DNA of 64,000 nt from Corallium rubrum (lineage: Eukaryota; Cnidaria; Anthozoa; Scleralcyonacea; Coralliidae), in the NCBI GenBank assembly GCA_964035015.1, contig OZ035999.1:3919627-3983626 (forward strand), read 5' to 3'. The notes under the pieces were generated by a model. It was given only the letters and a program-made list of their open reading frames with translations. It made no database searches and was not told the DNA's origin. Of this stretch, positions 3,140-38,600 are shown piece after piece (within the stretch, counting starts at the first letter, position 1; every line of letters starts with the position of its first letter). Made by a program: the position numbers and the translations under genes.

Positions 3140-4053
3140 TTAGTTTTGGGGATGATTCTGTAATAGCATGGATAAAGTTTCACAGTCAAGAGTGTCCGCC
3201 AATTGGAACACCAAAAATTGAAGTTGCATAATATTAAAAGTTGGCTGTAAATTGGAACAAAAAAGATTTTCTGTCCAGTATAATAAGTTCATTCTGGATT
3301 AGTTTGGGGTGGGGGGTTTGCACACATTTTGTAATCTGGAAAACTGCCAAGTAGGACCTGCAAAAAATTGTTTTAGAATTTTTCACTGTGTGCATGTGTC
3401 ACTACCTCTGCAAGCTTGTAGCTGAACCCACAAACCAAATGTCTACAAAAAACAATAGAGGACTTAGAGAAATACAAATAATGGAAACTAATTGTTAAGG
3501 ATCGTGATCAGTTAATGCAAATCACTTTTTTTTCTCTTGTCATTGGCAATAGAAATGTCCACAAAACTTGCTGAAAATTATTTCCTCTTTCTGACCAATT
3601 CATTTTTTCAAGTCTGTTTTTAATTTGAATGTCTTTTTGGGCCAAACAAGACAAAAAAGATTATTATTGTAGTAAGAAAACCCAATCAAATTCAAAGCAT
3701 TACAACTTTTATCAATGTAATGGTCATGAGAAAATAATTTTTGGCTATTTTCAAGAACACACTTCCATCACAATGACAGTAAATTAAAGTGAGTTGACTG
3801 CAACTGAAGGAAGGAAAGTATTGTATGCAAAGTTGAAAGAAAAACTTAAATAATAAAATTAATCCCCTCCAAACAATTAGTTGTAATATCATAATTACAC
3901 AACGCTTGCATGCACAAATTATTTAATATCGTTTAAACCTAATAATTATTTAAAACAGCTGGTCACACTTTAGAATTTTAGTTTTATTATGGCTTACAGT
4001 ATAGTACACAACAATGGGAATTCTAGCTTGACACTAAAACTATAGCAATATAC
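3140..4053. other. Non-coding, probable RBM39 intron 1
   Basis: AT-rich sequence immediately downstream, in minus-strand sense, of the RBM39 first-exon splice donor. No further RBM39 exon (RS-rich or RRM coding) was found on the minus strand between here and the left edge. Confidence 0.5.
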
Positions 4054-26658: not shown

Positions 26659-29600
26659 CTAAAAAGCTGAGACGAGAAACAGTTTGTTCTTGGCGAGTGC
26701 AAATATCATATTTTTACATGCTTGGATGCCGACTATTCCATCCGACCCCACATCATCCAACTGAACCAACTTCTGTTCGGCGTGGACAGCATCCTCGGCG
26801 CTAGGTTGGTAGTAGGTAAAAATATGATTTCTAACATCACAAACCAGGGCGTAAGACATATCCGGAGAACAAGAGGTAAACTTTTGTTCCTTTTTCGAAG
26901 CGTGAACGAATCCAAAAGCGTTTAGGGTACCAGTGTGCGTCCAGTTGAGCTCACCTGGGTCTTCGTGGGCATGCGGTTGCCAGATGAGGGCGTCAACGTC
27001 GTGTCTGACACAAAACGCGGGAGGCGAAGTTGGCTTGATCACCTTGGTGAAGAGCCATTGGTGGGTGGATAAACTGGTCTGGAAATAAAGGCAAAAAGAT
27101 TGATATTTCGTCGTGGACACACCTTTACGCGGCAGTGTTGGCATAAAACTGGATTGAAGCCGAACACGGCGGACATGTAGGCCGGGCCTGGTTATACACG
27201 GTGCAATTTTTCATGCAACTGTCTCGCAATGATGACTCATGCAGTTGCAAGACAGGGGGTGTTGCAAGCTGCAACGCGTTTATGCAATTTTCCAATGATT
27301 TGGATTTCGATAAAAGCGGGTAGACTGGGGAGAGGCTCGATTGAGTGCCAAATCATAACAAAATATTGCGAAACAAGTTGCTGAAGGGGTGTTACACGGT
27401 GCAACACTGAAACAAATTGCTGCAATCGTTGCAGAAAGTACAATCATTGACAAAATTAGTTGGAACATGTACACGAAAGTAAGACATTTCACAATGTTTT
27501 TATATCCCCCCATCCCCCCTATTCAATGTTGGCTTTCCATCAACGGAAATGTGATGAGAACCTATAGAGAACAAATCACGAATGTTTTGTGGTGATACAA
27601 CATTGTTTAGGGGGAGGGGGGGTCGAGTAATGTAGGCGGAGTGATGCAAAACATGTTAATGTTGCTTTTGTTACAACAATTTTGTCAATGATTGTCTGAA
27701 AATGATGGTATCTTTGTATTAACGTTTAACCTTTAAAATTTAACTAAATGTATGCGCTAATGTTAAGAAACTGCTTTACAAATAAAGTGCTAGCATTCCT
27801 CTTTAAAATTATCAAAATTGATTATATTGGATAAATTAAATGACGTCACAATGAGTTCTTTCAAAAATGGTGTTCAAAGGACGACTTACGGCCTTGCAAT
27901 GCGCACACGCACTTGTGTTGGCTCAGCAAGGGGGATACTCTCTTGCAAAGATTGCCTACAAGACGAAAATGTCGAGAACAAGTGTTTGGCGACTTCTACA
28001 TGCAGAAGAAATTGAAAGGGGAAAAAAGGAAAGAAAGCAGCCGGGGAAAAAAGTTGGCAGACCTCAGGTTATGACAGCGCGTGATAAACGGAAACTTAAA
28101 AGAGCTATTGCGAAAATCCGCCAACACAATCCAAATTTTACTGTTATGGACGTCGTGAAGACAAGTGGAATCAGTCTTGATACAGCCCATTACAGGACCT
28201 TTTTAAGACAAATTCGGAAACTGGGATTCCAATTTCAACAAAGTCGTAGAAAGGGGATCCTTACTGCGAAGGATCTAAAGCAACGACGTACATTTGCAAG
28301 GGCAATGTGTGCAAAAAATGCCGATTATTGGACGAAAGACGTGGCATTTTATTTGGACGGAGTATCCTTCATCTACAAAGGAAACCCGATGAGTGATGCG
28401 ATGAAACCAAAGAACAGAGTTTGGCGAAAAAGAAGCGAGGGTCTCGTAGTAACGACGAAAGGAAGTAAAGATCTGGCCGGAGGCAAACGATTGCATCTCA
28501 TTGTCGCCATATCATATGGGAAAGGAGTAATTTTAGCCGAGCCATACGAAAAAATGAACGGAAAATTTTTCGCGCAATTTATAACACGACATTTTCCAAA
28601 TTTGTTCGAAATAGCTGGAAAAGGTGAAACAGATGAGAAAATATTTGTGATGGACAACGACCTTTCACAAACGTCTTCAAAAGCAAGAACATGTTTGGCA
28701 GACCACGGCATTAGCATGCAAGCCATTCCACCAAGATCGCCAGACCTTAACCCGATTGAGAATATATTCCATGTCGTTAGAAAGCGCATTGAAGCCCAAG
28801 TGAGAAAGAATAACATCACACATCAGACATGGGATGAGTTCTGCAGTGCAGTTAAATACAATATTTGGTCAACGTCTAAAGAGTACATTGATAAGACAAT
28901 ATCCAGTATGCCGAAAAGACTAAAGCATATTGTGAAAACTAAGGGTCGACGAACAAAATACTGAACTCACTTACTAATTAAACCGTATCAATATTATCAA
29001 CACATGTTGTGCAAAACAGCAATTCAATGTTATACATGGTCATAATAATTTGTATTTAATGTAAACTACAACTTGAGAATTAGTGATAACAAATAACCCG
29101 AATTTCAAAGACTGTATGTGAGTTTGAAGGAATAAACTAATTGTTTTGAAGTTGCCATGCAACTCTGCCGTATTTAATAACGATGGTGTCGTATATCATA
29201 TGCAGTTACTCGTCACTTTATATCAGTGTATATGATGGTAACAAATACATTTTATTAAAAATTTACGGTTAAACAAGCTTTCTTAAATCGAATTATATCA
29301 TATTAATTCACTTTACCATGGCAAAATCATAATTTTTCATACACTTTACCACACTTTACCACACTTTACCACAAACAGTGTATAATAATAGGATACTTAA
29401 TTTAATTTATAAACACCGCTGTGGTAAAGTGTGGTAAAGTGTGGTAAAGTGTATGAAAAATAATCGTATACCTATGGTAAAGTGTACTCATATGAAACGC
29501 TACATCATAAGGATTAACATGATGGTTTGGCATTAACACAAAATAGAAAATATAGGAAGTTATAGCACAATATCTAATATAAGTCGTGCGAAACATGAAC

Positions 29601-32600
29601 CACAGGGTTGCACTTCCTTTTGTTCATGCTGGGCAATCTGGCGAGTAAAATTGAAAATTTTCCATCTGACGGCCATCATCTCCGTCTCTCGTTCGTCGAT
29701 TTGTCCGTTCTTCACATAAACGATCGGTCGTTTCGAAGTGCAAAAGATTGGTGTATCTCCGTCGAATGTCGTGTCCTTGGCAAAATGGGATTTAGGGGCA
29801 GGTAAATGAACCAGTTGCCCCTCCAACATGAGAAGCAGATCGTGCCACGCTAAAATTTGAGGAGACCACCTGAAGTCATTAAGAAAAACGACTTCAGCGT
29901 TCTCCGCTCCTACCCACGCAAAACTTGTGCATGCCGGATTGGTGAAGGTGTGGTAAATTCTGTTGAGAGGATTTAATAGGAAGGTTTTACCACAATTTGC
30001 AGGTCCCGTCAACATTATGTTCCGGTATTTCCCTCTACCCCTTTCAAGTAGTTCCCTCATTGATTTGGCAAACAGTTCTCGCGGTATGTGGTTGTTCTGC
30101 AGTAGCTGTAACGCACACATCTCCCACTCTCTTTCCGTTTCACAAGTGCATTTTGTGTCATATGCTTCTTTTAGCAAATCTATTCGCGATTTTTTGTTTC
30201 GTTCATTAGTGCGTTCTGCGCTTTCCATCTCCCATGCATTAGTTAGCAGTTCATTCACAACTTTTGTTCCCCGGTTGATGACGAATTCTGCCAAATCACT
30301 CTTCCCATGCCGTTTTTGCATATTAGCAAAAGCTAGCAAAGCATTTCGATTTCGAAGATTCTTTGCTACTATGATCTCCGATACGTCAAATGCACTGAGT
30401 CGTTTCCGCTTCTTCGCCGGCCCTTTCTTCTTCGTATCCGTATGCGTCTTCTTCATCGCTTGACTTCAGTGGCATACGTTTCTTTCTGCGTTGTTTGAAA
30501 GTTTCGTGGGCTCTCATAGTTGCAGGTCCATTGCTGTTGGTTAAATCTGGGTGGTTGTCGCTTTGTTCGTATGCCGTATCTTCTGTCGTAACATACTTCC
30601 ACGCGGTGAAATAGTTTGCGTGGACGCTTGAGAAATGGACAGATATGCCATGTTTTTTTTGCAGTGCTTTCTTTGAAGGCAACAATCGTTGAATTCTATC
30701 AAGCTTCACACAAACATGATAGTGTATTCCCGATTTTTTGTGCAACTCTTTCGAACAACACCATTGTAAAACGACTACAGATCGCGCGCAGAAAGAATCA
30801 ACAATAGCTTCTGCGAAAGATTGTCGTGTGGGAAACTTTTGAGTATCCGCTTGGCTCAAAGTAACCAAATATACCTGACGAACTTCGCGAGTATGTAATT
30901 CTTCATCTTCTGATGATGTACTCGACCTATCGCTATTATAACATTGTAATAATTCCATTCCATTCAGTTGAATGTGAACTACGAAGACACAGTGGGTGTC
31001 ACAATGGCAGTGTAATATGAGAAAAGGTGTTATAGTACACGCCATGACACTTTGGAGACAATTTTTAAGGGAATACTACGACCTCATTCTGACCATGAAT
31101 AACAAAAGTAAAGGAGTGCATGGCGTAAGCCATTTCTCGCAATCTGCATTATGTAAAATACAAGGTAATAGACAAAAATATAGTTACCAAGTGCCGTTAC
31201 GTAAACGCGTGTTCGCAACTTGCCAAGTTATGATTTCTGAATTATGACGAAAATCAATTCAAATGCATAATTTGTATAATATATTATAAAATATACTTCA
31301 TTAAAACAATTAGGTGCTTAATTTTCACGTATTCTAAGTAATATTTGATGAAATTATTTAGTTAAAATTTGTTTTTCTCTTGAAAATAATCTTAAAATTT
31401 TGCATAAAAAACTCAGACAATCATTGACAAAATTAGTTGGAACATGTACACGAAAGTAAGACATTTCACAATGTTTTTATATCCCCCCATCCCCCCTATT
31501 CAATGTTGGCTTTCCATCAACGGAAATGTGATGAGAACCTATAGAGAACAAATCACGAATGTTTTGTGGTGATACAACATTGTTTAGGGGGAGGGGGGTC
31601 GAGTAATGTAGGCGGAGTGATGCAAAACATGTTAATGTTGCTTTTGTTACAACAATTTTGTCAATGATTGTCTGAAAATGATGGTATCTTTGTATTAACG
31701 TTTAACCTTTAAAATTTAACTAAATGTATGCGCTAATGTTAAGAAACTGCTTTACAAATAAAGTGCTAGCATTCCTCTTTAAAATTATCAAAATTGATTA
31801 TATTGGATAAATTAAATGACGTCACAATGAGTTCTTTCAAAAATGGTGTTCAAAGGACGACTTACGGCCTTGCAATGCGCACACGCACTTGTGTTGGCTC
31901 AGCAAGGGGGATACTCTCTTGCAAAGATTGCCTACAAGACGAAAATGTCGAGAACAAGTGTTTGGCGACTTCTACATGCAGAAGAAATTGAAAGGGGAAA
32001 AAAGGAAAGAAAGCAGCCGGGGAAAAAAGTTGGCAGACCTCAGGTTATGACAGCGCGTGATAAACGGAAACTTAAAAGAGCTATTGCGAAAATCCGCCAA
32101 CACAATCCAAATTTTACTGTTATGGACGTCGTGAAGACAAGTGGAATCAGTCTTGATACAGCCCATTACAGGACCTTTTTAAGACAAATTCGGAAACTGG
32201 GATTCCAATTTCAACAAAGTCGTAGAAAGGGGATCCTTACTGCGAAGGATCTAAAGCAACGACGTACATTTGCAAGGGCAATGTGTGCAAAAAATGCCGA
32301 TTATTGGACGAAAGACGTGGCATTTTATTTGGACGGAGTATCCTTCATCTACAAAGGAAACCCGATGAGTGATGCGATGAAACCAAAGAACAGAGTTTGG
32401 CGAAAAAGAAGCGAGGGTCTCGTAGTAACGACGAAAGGAAGTAAAGATCTGGCCGGAGGCAAACGATTGCATCTCATTGTCGCCATATCATATGGGAAAG
32501 GAGTAATTTTAGCCGAGCCATACGAAAAAATGAACGGAAAATTTTTCGCGCAATTTATAACACGACATTTTCCAAATTTGTTCGAAATAGCTGGAAAAGG

Positions 32601-35600
32601 TGAAACAGATGAGAAAATATTTGTGATGGACAACGACCTTTCACAAACGTCTTCAAAAGCAAGAACATGTTTGGCAGACCACGGCATTAGCATGCAAGCC
32701 ATTCCACCAAGATCGCCAGACCTTAACCCGATTGAGAATATATTCCATGTCGTTAGAAAGCGCATTGAAGCCCAAGTGAGAAAGAATAACATCACACATC
32801 AGACATGGGATGAGTTCTGCAGTGCAGTTAAATACAATATTTGGTCAACGTCTAAAGAGTACATTGATAAGACAATATCCAGTATGCCGAAAAGACTAAA
32901 GCATATTGTGAAAACTAAGGGTCGACGAACAAAATACTGAACTCACTTACTAATTAAACCGTATCAATATTATCAACACATGTTGTGCAAAACAGCAATT
33001 CAATGTTATACATGGTCATAATAATTTGTATTTAATGTAAACTACAACTTGAGAATTAGTGATAACAAATAACCCGAATTTCAAAGACTGTATGTGAGTT
33101 TGAAGGAATAAACTAATTGTTTTGAAGTTGCCATGCAACTCTGCCGTATTTAATAACGATGGTGTCGTATATCATATGCAGTTACTCGTCACTTTATATC
33201 AGTGTATATGATGGTAACAAATACATTTTATTAAAAATTTACGGTTAAACAAGCTTTCTTAAATCGAATTATATCATATTAATTCACTTTACCATGGCAA
33301 AATCATAATTTTTCATACACTTTACCACACTTTACCACACTTTACCACAAACAGTGTATAATAATAGGATACTTAATTTAATTTATAAACACCGCTGTGG
33401 TAAAGTGTGGTAAAGTGTGGTAAAGTGTATGAAAAATAATCGTATACCTATGGTAAAGTGTACTCATATGAAACGCTACATCATAAGGATTAACATGATG
33501 GTTTGGCATTAACACAAAATAGAAAATATAGGAAGTTATAGCACAATATCTAATATAAGTCGTGCGAAACATGAACCACAGGGTTGCACTTCCTTTTGTT
33601 CATGCTGGGCAATCTGGCGAGTAAAATTGAAAATTTTCCATCTGACGGCCATCATCTCCGTCTCTCGTTCGTCGATTTGTCCGTTCTTCACATAAACGAT
33701 CGGTCGTTTCGAAGTGCAAAAGATTGGTGTATCTCCGTCGAATGTCGTGTCCTTGGCAAAATGGGATTTAGGGGCAGGTAAATGAACCAGTTGCCCCTCC
33801 AACATGAGAAGCAGATCGTGCCACGCTAAAATTTGAGGAGACCACCTGAAGTCATTAAGAAAAACGACTTCAGCGTTCTCCGCTCCTACCCACGCAAAAC
33901 TTGTGCATGCCGGATTGGTGAAGGTGTGGTAAATTCTGTTGAGAGGATTTAATAGGAAGGTTTTACCACAATTTGCAGGTCCCGTCAACATTATGTTCCG
34001 GTATTTCCCTCTACCCCTTTCAAGTAGTTCCCTCATTGATTTGGCAAACAGTTCTCGCGGTATGTGGTTGTTCTGCAGTAGCTGTAACGCACACATCTCC
34101 CACTCTCTTTCCGTTTCACAAGTGCATTTTGTGTCATATGCTTCTTTTAGCAAATCTATTCGCGATTTTTTGTTTCGTTCATTAGTGCGTTCTGCGCTTT
34201 CCATCTCCCATGCATTAGTTAGCAGTTCATTCACAACTTTTGTTCCCCGGTTGATGACGAATTCTGCCAAATCACTCTTCCCATGCCGTTTTTGCATATT
34301 AGCAAAAGCTAGCAAAGCATTTCGATTTCGAAGATTCTTTGCTACTATGATCTCCGATACGTCAAATGCACTGAGTCGTTTCCGCTTCTTCGCCGGCCCT
34401 TTCTTCTTCGTATCCGTATGCGTCTTCTTCATCGCTTGACTTCAGTGGCATACGTTTCTTTCTGCGTTGTTTGAAAGTTTCGTGGGCTCTCATAGTTGCA
34501 GGTCCATTGCTGTTGGTTAAATCTGGGTGGTTGTCGCTTTGTTCGTATGCCGTATCTTCTTTCGTAACATACTTCCACGCGGTGAAATAGTTTGCGTGGA
34601 CGCTTGAGAAATGGACAGATATGCCATGTTTTTTTTGCAGTGCTTTCTTTGAAGGCAACAATCGTTGAATTCTATCAAGCTTCACACAAACATGATAGTG
34701 TATTCCCGATTTTTTGTGCAACTCTTTCGAACAACACCATTGTAAAACGACTACAGATCGCGCGCAGAAAGAATCAACAATAGCTTCTGCGAAAGATTGT
34801 CGTGTGGGAAACTTTTGAGTATCCGCTTGGCTCAAAGTAACCAAATATACCTGACGAACTTCGCGAGTATGTAATTCTTCATCTTCTGATGATGTACTCG
34901 ACCTATCGCTATTATAACATTGTAATAATTCCATTCCATTCAGTTGAATGTGAACTACGAAGACACAGTGGGTGTCACAATGGCAGTGTAATATGAGAAA
35001 AGGTGTTATAGTACACGCCATGACACTTTGGAGACAATTTTTAAGGGAATACTACGACCTCATTCTGACCATGAATAACAAAAGTAAAGGAGTGCATGGC
35101 GTAAGCCATTTCTCGCAATCTGCATTATGTAAAATACAAGGTAATAGACAAAAATATAGTTACCAAGTGCCGTTACGTAAACGCGTGTTCGCAACTTGCC
35201 AAGTTATGATTTCTGAATTATGACGAAAATCAATTCAAATGCATAATTTGTATAATATATTATAAAATATACTTCATTAAAACAATTAGGTGCTTAATTT
35301 TCACGTATTCTAAGTAATATTTGATGAAATTATTTAGTTAAAATTTGTTTTTCTCTTGAAAATAATCTTAAAATTTTGCATAAAAAACTCAGACAATCAT
35401 TGACAAAATTAGTTGGAACATGTACACGAAAGTAAGACATTTCACAATGTTTTTATATCCCCCCATCCCCCCTATTCAATGTTGGCTTTCCATCAACGGA
35501 AATGTGATGAGAACCTATAGAGAACAAATCACGAATGTTTTGTGGTGATACAACATTGTTTAGGGGGAGGGGGGGTCGAGTAATGTAGGCGGAGTGATGC

Positions 35601-38600
35601 AAAACATGTTAATGTTGCTTTTGTTACAACAATTTTGTCAATGATTGTAGAACCTGATTCTACTTTGTGCAACGATTGTATTACAACTTATCTCGTGACG
35701 ATTTTGACCATTGCACAGCAAGTTACACGGTGCAATTGGTTCATGCAACGCCGTTGCGAGACAAGTTGCATGAACCATTGCACCGTGTGACATGCTATAC
35801 AATGGTCAAAATCCGTGTAACAGGGCCTTTAGGTTCTACACGGTCTGATCCGGTTAAAAGACCGCGTAAGAGAGCCTACGTGTTTAGCTTCAATCTTTGT
35901 CCACCTATCACACTAGGTAGGATGGGTTAACGGGGTGGGTTGGAATAACCCTATATATGTTGTTGCACCCTCTCACATGCCTTTTCTCCATGTACCCCGT
36001 TTTTCCCTCCTCCATAAAAACAACACCTAGTAATCTTAGGGAATCTTTATATAAGGTTAACCGCAAAATTCTCCTGCATGCAAGGATCTTGATAACTTGT
36101 TTAAACGAGATTGATCGAAGTCTACGTTTAATAAAATCCATACTTATACTGAGAATGGTATGCCACTAAGATTATTCAATGCAACCTTACTTTATGTGTG
36201 ACGGTGCCATCTTTTACACCCATTCGTACAATGTACAACACATCTTCGGGCAAGGAGTCACATTCTTCTAGCTCTCCTTGATTGAACAATGTATTTGTTT
36301 CTTTCTGAAAAAAAAGTAAACCACAAATAAATCAACGTTCCTCGCAACAATACAGTAGTATGTACGATTCTATTCTCACCGTTTTGGTATTCAGTAATTC
36401 ATCCAATATCTCAAGGTTTTCCCCATTTGGTCTGTATTGTCCTCTTTCATCCCCCTTTATCACATCAAGCCACAAAAGGTCGGACACAATCTTTTCTAAA
36501 GATATTTCTAGCCTGAAGAATTGTGAAAATTAACATTCTTAAAACATGAGATCGTGGACCCTAGCTAAACGTCGCTCTTCTCATGCGCCAAACCTAATGA
36601 TAATGAGCTAAATCCTTTGTTTATGCTGATTTGCATTAGGTTCAGGGCATGAGAAGAGCGACGTTTCACCTAAGCCTATAAGAGGTTACCTTGTAAGATG
36701 TTACGCTACCTGAAGTGTAGGTACATATTAAGACCCCGTTTACACGATGCCGGTACAATTTGAAAACGGAACAAAATCATGTCGTTATGCAAATACAGCA
36801 TATAACATTTCACGTTATTTTTGTGCCGGTATCGTGTAAACGCAAGGCCTAAACGGCATGATTTTGTTCCGTTTTCAAATTATACCGGCATCGTGTAAAC
36901 GGGGTCTAAGTTACGTTGCAAGACGTTACCGTTACACTAGGTTAACTGACGTTACACTAAGTTTAGTTATAAGATATTAGGCCGCTAAGTTGTAAGATGT
37001 TAGGCTGCGTTATAAAACATACATATATACGCTTACGTTTTAAGTCGCTACGTTGTAAGACATTCCAGTTTAGGCCAATAAAAAAATAGCTGGGTTTCCT
37101 ATTTCTCTCCACAAAAATTTAGGTAGGGTAGGTTGGATTTCTTCTTTTTTTTACTTTTTTTTAATTTAGTGCCTAGGAATAACAATAATATTCTTTCCAA
37201 CACCAAATGTCAATTACACTAGCACATCCATTAAAGCTAATTTTGAGCACATAGAGATGCAAATCACGCTGCAACTCGGGCCCATGCTCCTTAAAAATTC
37301 AATAAAAAGATTAGGGTCGGCATTTTGCTAGCAAAAAACTAGGTAGGGTCGGGAAACCGGAAACCCAGGTATATTTTTGGCCTTAGAAATATTATTTTAT
37401 ATTATACACTTAATGTCTGCTCCCGAGGGAAACAGTTAGTTTTGTTTTCCCGAGAGTCTTGATATTTCCCGAGACGAAGTCGAGGGAAACATCGAGACTC
37501 GAGGGAAAACAAAACTAACTGTTTCCCGAGGGATCAGACATTAAGTGTTTTGTTATATAGCTAGAGTTTTACTGAATAATTTCGACGTTTATCAAGGGAA
37601 AGTACACAAAAGACAAAGTGAAAGACTTACCAAAACATTTCGCCTGGCTCCGTAATTTCACTTCAACCAAACAAATATTAGTCTCAGAACAAAAGAACAG
37701 CAATACATTTCTCCAGTTAATCTTCACACATGCTTTGAAGACCTATAAATATTCTTTTTTTCGTACCAAACAAGCTTTTGTTTATAGGATGCTGTGAAGA
37801 GTTCAAATTTCTAGCGGGCAGCAATTGAGAACTTACTGACCGAGCAGGCAATAAGTTCTCAATTATTGCCCGCCCGGTAGACATTCAAATTTAGATAAGG
37901 TCATGTGACCACAAACCAACCAATGACAGTCATCGTTGTATCCAGCGAAACTCTAGCTATATAACAATATCTATTATTAAAGGATTTTTCTGAAGAGTTA
38001 CCGATTTACGGAAAAACTGACACTTACACACTGCAGTTTAGAACGGTGTGACTTATAGCGACTTATAGGCCAGAAAATACGGTAAAGTTAAATTTCAAGT
38101 CTCTGAAAAGTGACATACTGACAGTACCTTTGTTTCTCTATTATCCAAGTGCAGGAATCGCTTTCCACTGGGGCATATAATTCACCATCCAATAATGTTT
38201 GACCATTTTTCAAACTGACCTTCAAACTATGTGTTTTTACACTGAACAAAATATCATGTTTTCCCATTCCTGCAGGGAGAGGATACAAGATAGTTATTTG
38301 CCCACCATCTTGCGTCCAGGCATACTCCTTTTTTATTTTTGCCTCTTCATCTGGTTCCTTTGAAACAGGTCTGATATCTTCATATCCTTGATCAAGGGAA
38401 ACTAAGTGGAATAAAAAGGAATTTTCTTAGACTTGTGTTCTTTTCAGATGACTGGTAAGGCCAATAGACGAGTTTCTGGGTGTTGCGTGCGCATCGTTTT
38501 GGAAAGAAATTGGCGGGCTCTTGGCGGGCTCCCCACAAAGTAAGGAATGGCAAACAGACTTGCTAGCGATATAGCAACAGCGGCAGAATAACAATGTTTT

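Follow-up and report, generated by a model that had tools for sequence, protein, structure and literature searches.

A Tc1/mariner-type transposon of Corallium rubrum that carries HUH and SF3 Rep parts and often occurs as head-to-tail multimers

A 64,000-nucleotide stretch of the genome of the anthozoan Corallium rubrum (GCA_964035015.1, contig OZ035999.1, positions 3,919,627 to 3,983,626; hereafter the window, designated C12:3919627-3983626 within the 474-Mb genome that was searched) contains a mobile element in which the gene for a Tc1/mariner-type transposase faces, on the opposite strand, open reading frames (ORFs) for the two parts of a Rep-type replication initiator, an HUH endonuclease and a superfamily 3 (SF3) helicase. 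Tc1/mariner elements usually have only a transposase between their ends, and the window element departs from this content in that the Rep parts and an iteron hairpin also lie between its ends. The insertion is 8,207 bp long (27441-35647), begins with CAATCATTG and ends with CAATGATTG, and it is a head-to-tail dimer with a unit period of 3,976 bp, in which three copies of a terminal module, E, alternate with two bodies in the order E-body-E-body-E (Table 1). An initial annotation of this DNA had described one TA-flanked insertion with inverted ends; the TA flanks and the coordinates proved exact, whereas the simple inverted ends gave way to a dimer with three E copies. It is nearly certain that the hybrid of a Tc1-type transposon and an HUH-SF3 Rep is real, a chance occurrence being excluded by the repeat structure and by the relatives described below. 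We further propose that the element is probably an integrating rolling-circle replicon, in which Rep would make multimers and the transposase would integrate them through any two E modules.

Table 1. Features of the dimeric insertion, in window coordinates
Feature	Position	Strand	Description
TA, left flank	27439..27440	.	Target dinucleotide, read directly
E module, left outer copy	27441..27694	+	254 bp; imperfect palindrome with ends CAATCATTGACAAAATT and its inverse
Transposase, unit 1	27867..28964	+	DD34E Tc1/mariner type, 365 aa, intact
Iteron hairpin, unit 1	29298..29495	.	10-bp iteron TGTGGTAAAG in inverted arrays; putative origin of replication
SF3 helicase part of Rep, unit 1	29560..30456	-	298-aa ORF
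HUH endonuclease part of Rep, unit 1	30386..31045	-	219-aa ORF in another frame; motif III YVTT
E module, inner copy	31418..31670	+	Borders TCAGA/E/TCTGA
Transposase, unit 2	31843..32940	+	
Iteron hairpin, unit 2	33274..33471	.	
SF3 part of Rep, unit 2	33536..34432	-	
HUH part of Rep, unit 2	34362..35021	-	Motif III YVTK
E module, right outer copy	35394..35647	+	
TA, right flank	35648..35649	.	

The transposase ORFs of the two units are identical and intact, as had been annotated for each unit of about 3.97 kb. The protein matches the Pfam family DDE_3 (E=1.2e-14) and the Sleeping Beauty chain 5cr4 (E=2.6e-11), and its match to an IS630-type profile lies below the cut-off. The catalytic residues are D164, D263 and E298, and the 34 residues that separate the last two give the DD34E spacing.

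The Rep is divided in the window copies between ORFs in different frames. The HUH ORF carries the motifs HYH and YVT(K/T), whose residues are invariant or at least 90% conserved in a 40-row alignment, and the lysine of motif III is absent only from window unit 1 among 27 HUH copies compared; the SF3 ORF carries the Walker A motif GPANCGKT. In single-sequence searches of Pfam the HUH ORF gave one weak match (REP_ORF2-G2P, 8.7e-5), below its cut-off, and all matches of the SF3 ORF were likewise below cut-off. When 24 related Reps were compared with Pfam (E up to 0.01), 11 matched REP_ORF2-G2P, nine matched PPV_E1_C (best 8.9e-7) and seven matched Parvo_NS1 (best 3.6e-7). A sequence-only search of the PDB with Rep yielded nothing useful, and a search of PHROGs nothing informative. 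The AlphaFold model of the HUH part, with a core predicted local distance difference test (pLDDT) score of 90-98, has as its closest folds the Rep domains of redondoviruses, circoviruses and geminiviruses, with target template modelling (TM) scores of 0.54-0.75 for the seven best matches. For the Rep of a relative, P0047 (mean pLDDT 79), the top match of the model is Rep68 of adeno-associated virus (AAV; E=1.4e-11, TM 0.39 over both domains, with a differing domain arrangement), followed by the helicases of papillomavirus E1, AAV Rep40 and B19 NS1 with target TM mostly 0.53-0.69; against a viral library, papillomavirus and parvovirus proteins lead, together with some Reps of circular Rep-encoding single-stranded (CRESS) DNA viruses. 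These comparisons of predicted folds support both the HUH and the SF3 assignments of the initial annotation, more clearly than the sequence profiles do. Unbroken Rep frames exist elsewhere in the genome, since 28 of the 34 closest SF3 matches (at least 96% identical) lie within a 514-aa open frame and since Rep is a single ORF in the diverged loci L043 (527 aa), L044 (474 aa) and L048 (443 aa).

A region of 198 bp between the 3' ends of the transposase and Rep has inverted arms of 76 nt, each holding 3.3 copies of the 10-bp iteron. The stability of this hairpin exceeds that of 200 of 200 shuffles (z=-14.6). Iterons and a hairpin are typical of the replication origins of CRESS-DNA viruses and rolling-circle replication (RCR) plasmids, and by this analogy the region looks as would be expected of an origin used by an HUH Rep, which it is likely to be.

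The association of the two genes recurs throughout the genome, in which the transposase has at least 176 matches (a single copy being represented by two pieces in some cases) and the SF3 part at least 133. Six diverged loci were fetched, five picked from the transposase matches and one from the SF3 matches; two of them, L041 and L042, are near-duplicates (transposases 99% identical), so that the six represent five families. Their transposases are 69.7, 69.4, 62.8, 61.9, 60.8 and 41% identical to that of the window, the last over residues 128-365. All six loci have the order E, transposase, hairpin, SF3, HUH, E and are oriented throughout as in the window, four with both E copies complete and L041 and L044 with one incomplete E each. 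An inverted repeat or hairpin occupies the equivalent place in every one of them; L041, L042, L044 and L045 show iterons in inverted arrays, with a GTGGT core, as does L048, with a different word, and no such array is visible in L043. The conserved order across diverged loci implies that the association of Rep and transposase is old. With the DDE_3 listing limited to 150 matches, moreover, a DDE_3 match faces at least 37 of the 131 SF3 places, and the possibility raised at the outset, that the two genes always lie apart elsewhere, did not hold. Insertion of endogenous viral sequences into transposons has been reported (PMC3198968, in part of its text), and a viral fragment nested by chance in a Tc1 element would be a comparable event; the conserved order and the facing gene pairs led us to reject this explanation, to which we attach next to no probability.

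The E module is 253-254 bp long and has Tc1-like ends. In the window subfamily, inner copies are bordered by TCAGA and TCTGA and outer copies by TA; the same borders were recovered by pattern at the ends in L041-L045, and the computed fold of the inner window E, borders included, is an imperfect palindrome (z=-8.2). TA stands on both sides of all 11 insertions whose flanks were read, and 10 of them have a full outer E at each end, the exception being a Rep-deleted derivative. Some inner junctions lack E and retain a few bases in its place: CCTG and CTG in a trimer at C1:28.6M, CATG twice in a hexamer at C32:10.2M, and CTG at the short spacing of a diverged array on C25. CATG consists of the first two and the last two bases of E, and cutting of the Tc1 type leaves a footprint of terminal nucleotides, a form that CATG matches. 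Footprints of Tc1/mariner excision are stated to be 2-4 bp long in the pertinent passage of PMC7913693. The scars at these five inner junctions, in two families, resemble Tc1-type excision footprints; E therefore seems to be excised on its own, and the TA flanks and scars together support the cut-and-paste integration that had been proposed. One further inner E is internally deleted, and a solo E lies between two TAs at L046, 40 E matches having been scored.

Several minor features of E were recorded. A shortening by 1-2 bases, in runs of G or C, is seen in 11 of 12 intact inner copies and in none of 16 outer copies (window and L021-L040); outer copies on C13 and C37, outside the 16 compared, are full length, and the match data for the C1:14.5M insertion, a locus that was not fetched, include one outer E with a length of 252. 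Single-base differences between array units in homopolymers may be errors, and the length difference is probably an effect of polishing or sequencing, or else a genuine distinction between inner and end copies. A C-run/G-run stretch (about E 62-92 or 158-182) is common to the window, L042, L043, L044 and L045, whose E modules are otherwise dissimilar, and is possibly a G-quadruplex. In L045, on C237, an extra partial copy of the E start lies beside the full E (3868-4041).

Multimers recur across the family, which, like the existence of E as a separate module, goes beyond what had initially been described. Of the ten full-length loci of the window subfamily that were mapped, the window included, five are monomers and the other five multimers, with 2, 3, 4, 6 and 7 units; two further mapped loci are Rep-deleted derivatives. 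Of 93 listed SF3 loci, 18 are same-strand runs of several units spaced 3.0-4.6 kb apart; the run at C1:80.60M links dissimilar copies and is unlikely to be an array. The units of one array have array-specific substitutions in common: all four units at C1:87.7M carry the HUH 208 and bodyR 106 variants, and the transposase 546 variant is present in 7/7 and 6/6 transposase copies of two arrays on C32 (pieces cut by locus boundaries were left out of this comparison). These common private variants indicate that one template was amplified in each array, and for the mapped arrays they rule out serial insertion of different elements. The two C32 arrays (C32:56373-84503, seven units, and C32:10192193-10215982, six units) lie 10 Mb apart and have the same private variants, as if drawn from one pool. 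In one hexamer the inner junctions alternate between E, none, E, none and E, a pattern that fits the copying of a dimer circle.

In the replicon that we propose, a small circle would consist of one E and one body. Rep, through its HUH endonuclease and SF3 helicase parts, would nick and unwind at the iteron hairpin and copy the circle into head-to-tail multimers, and the transposase would recognise E by its ends. Acting on a monomer circle, which has a single E, it would free E alone; the genes need two E modules to be carried, and these would be supplied by Rep-made multimers. Cuts at the outer ends of any two E copies of a multimer would place E-(body-E)n at a TA, the arrangement that is observed, so that monomers, dimers and longer arrays could arise in one integration step; inner E copies could later be excised to leave a scar of 3-4 bp. 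Rep would also act in trans on derivatives that have lost it. Such derivatives exist: L051 (C108), L052 (C96), L040 and L038 (C8) have lost most of Rep, and L051 and L052 part of the transposase as well, and all have kept E and the iteron hairpin. The first three form tandem arrays with units of about 2.2-2.6 kb, and L038 is single, with one E partly matched. In two Rep-less derivative units with a broken transposase the hairpin is 99.5% identical, against 93-98.5% elsewhere, except for one 48-bp piece at 100%.

Alternatively, unequal crossing-over could have enlarged the arrays within the chromosome, the exchange taking place between the 254-bp E copies of a genuine hybrid whose Rep serves some other step. 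Arrays of the form E-(body-E)n, made of clonal units, would be the outcome of crossing-over as well; it would accommodate the arrays of Rep-less derivatives, and also variants confined to some units of an array, as with the dyad and bodyL 60 variants, which are found in only two of the seven units of C32a. The derivatives' retention of E and hairpin, and their arrays, would be expected if Rep and transposase act in trans, and equally from crossing-over. Against this explanation, exchange would have to be frequent for a repeat of 254 bp and would have to operate in many families, given the proportion of SF3 loci with runs, and the private variants common to the two distant C32 arrays fit dispersal of ready-made multimers better. 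We consider crossing-over unlikely as the source of the arrays.

Other observations, in addition to the outcome expected of crossing-over, weigh against the replicon proposed here. The split Rep of the window dimer may be inactive there. The hairpin is a putative origin in which a nick site is presumed, and it is not unusually conserved everywhere, its identity being 89.6-100% in full-length copies and 94.9-99% in the derivatives L038 and L040. L048 breaks the border rule: TCAGA and TCTCT border its inner E, and no TA precedes its first E. The solo E could stem from recombination between two E copies. The identities of transposase and Rep are correlated over seven loci (r=0.86 for SF3 and 0.91 for HUH, permutation p 0.003 and 0.005), a relation that is not significant when L041 is omitted (p 0.07 and 0.12), and L043 and L044 hint at some exchange of genes. 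Among the DDE_3 matches listed, 10 loci are Rep-less derivatives of the window family and 4 of these are in runs, which need either Rep in trans or another mechanism; in favour of the replicon, runs occur in the same listing at 4 of 23 loci that face SF3 and at none of 96 other loci for which no SF3 was listed, in what is a comparison between samples. Finally, the circle, the nicking at the hairpin, the rolling-circle formation of multimers, the handling of one or two E copies by the transposase and the action of Rep in trans are steps that we infer.

The absence of runs from those 96 loci bears also on a Rep-free origin of the concatemers, in which a transposase acts on a circular transposon, as proposed for the Bari1 arrays of Drosophila. 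That proposal concerns another Tc1-like element and explains its arrays by a rolling-circle-like process, according to the passage of PMC8834629 that deals with them. Besides the distribution of runs, the presence of Rep and hairpin in all six diverged loci speaks against such an origin here, and we regard it as most unlikely.

The integrating replicon may also be formulated more strongly. In geminiviruses, integrated dimers with two origins allow Rep to release unit circles. By extension, the present elements could form a class of their own among eukaryotic mobile elements, with HUH replication obligatorily making a multimer before DDE integration, since integration needs two E modules and the circle has one; E would then be a built-in mini-transposon, and the arrays launch sites from which Rep releases circles between two origins. 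We offer this formulation tentatively, as one that may well be correct.

Relatives outside this genome are known from lists of protein matches. Those from named species belong to the cnidarians Paramuricea, Actinostola, Dendronephthya, Acropora and Porites and to a sea cucumber. Many relatives lie in public contigs of 3-5 kb (33 of 119 Rep contigs and 38 of 120 transposase contigs). Comparison of the sizes of public contigs with listed Rep/HUH matches and those with transposase matches paired six transposases, against a mean of 1.7 at shifted sizes, which is suggestive only. The short contigs, together with the resemblance of Rep to the initiators of CRESS viruses, parvoviruses and papillomaviruses, could be taken to mean that an infectious single-stranded DNA virus, which integrates by transposase and borrows a capsid, has the element as its satellite or capsid-less stage. 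However, such contigs may be assembly pieces, pattern-limited scans found no relative in IMG/VR viral contigs (nor, in a scan limited in the same way, in GTDB genomes), and no capsid gene was found by sequence comparison with Pfam, in which the five other ORFs of unit 1 of at least 70 aa had no match better than E=0.06. A viral stage is thus quite unlikely.

The element combines features of several known systems. With the Tc1/mariner (IS630-Tc1-mariner) group, for example Sleeping Beauty, it has in common the DD34E catalytic domain, TA on both sides, short inverted ends that begin with CA and scars of 3-4 bp; it differs in its HUH-SF3 Rep parts and iteron hairpin, in ends that form a separately excisable module and in being often multimeric. 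With CRESS-DNA viruses and RCR plasmids it has in common an HUH fold closest to CRESS Reps and the iterons and hairpin, and it differs from them in a helicase that best matches parvovirus and papillomavirus proteins, in having no capsid gene that we found and in its own DDE transposase. Helitrons are likewise eukaryotic mobile elements with an HUH protein, which they use for transposition together with an SF1-type helicase, producing no target duplication and having no terminal inverted repeats; the present element has an SF3-type helicase, inverted ends and TA flanks, and its insertion is apparently performed by a DDE enzyme.

The closest precedent found is the geminivirus-like transposon of the truffle Tuber melanosporum (Liu et al. 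2011, PMC3198968), a degraded, multicopy element whose 37-bp inverted repeats enclose a Rep-like ORF and transposase ORFs. Unlike the present element it was reconstructed, with interrupted ORFs, no obvious target duplication and a Rep of geminivirus type, as its description there has it; the section on the element does not describe E modules or arrays, and the main text of the paper does not mention Tc1, mariner, Fot1, pogo or DDE. The same paper cites parvovirus-like repeats of an acorn worm and the Repbase entries DENSOV_HM (Hydra) and PIVE (planarian), which resemble the present family in being repeats with an NS1/E1-like Rep in early-branching animals, DENSOV_HM falling near papillomavirus in a tree. 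They differ in that the passage concerned mentions no transposase, and they are set beside the present family by description only (PMC3198968). Teratorn, a fusion of piggyBac with a herpesvirus, is similarly a cut-and-paste transposon joined to a viral system; by the account in the relevant part of PMC10175614 it is 180 kb long and has another transposase and another virus. Transposon-virus hybrids are thus already known, and what is new, as far as we have checked, is a Tc1 and HUH-SF3 family with E modules and multimeric insertions, which is also much better preserved. A search of the open literature in PMC found no paper on such an element; subscription papers, bioRxiv and Repbase lay outside its scope, so that a description may exist.

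The family represents a stable, diversified and apparently recent union of a cut-and-paste transposon with a virus-type replicon, and no one-off relic. It makes the interconversion of single-stranded DNA viruses, plasmids and transposons testable in living animals, suggests a route for the integration of small replicons in multimeric form, and could account for tandem transposon arrays otherwise ascribed to accident.

The window insertion itself sits between the inverted arms of another repeat (27196-27220 and 35764-35788; 35700-35813).

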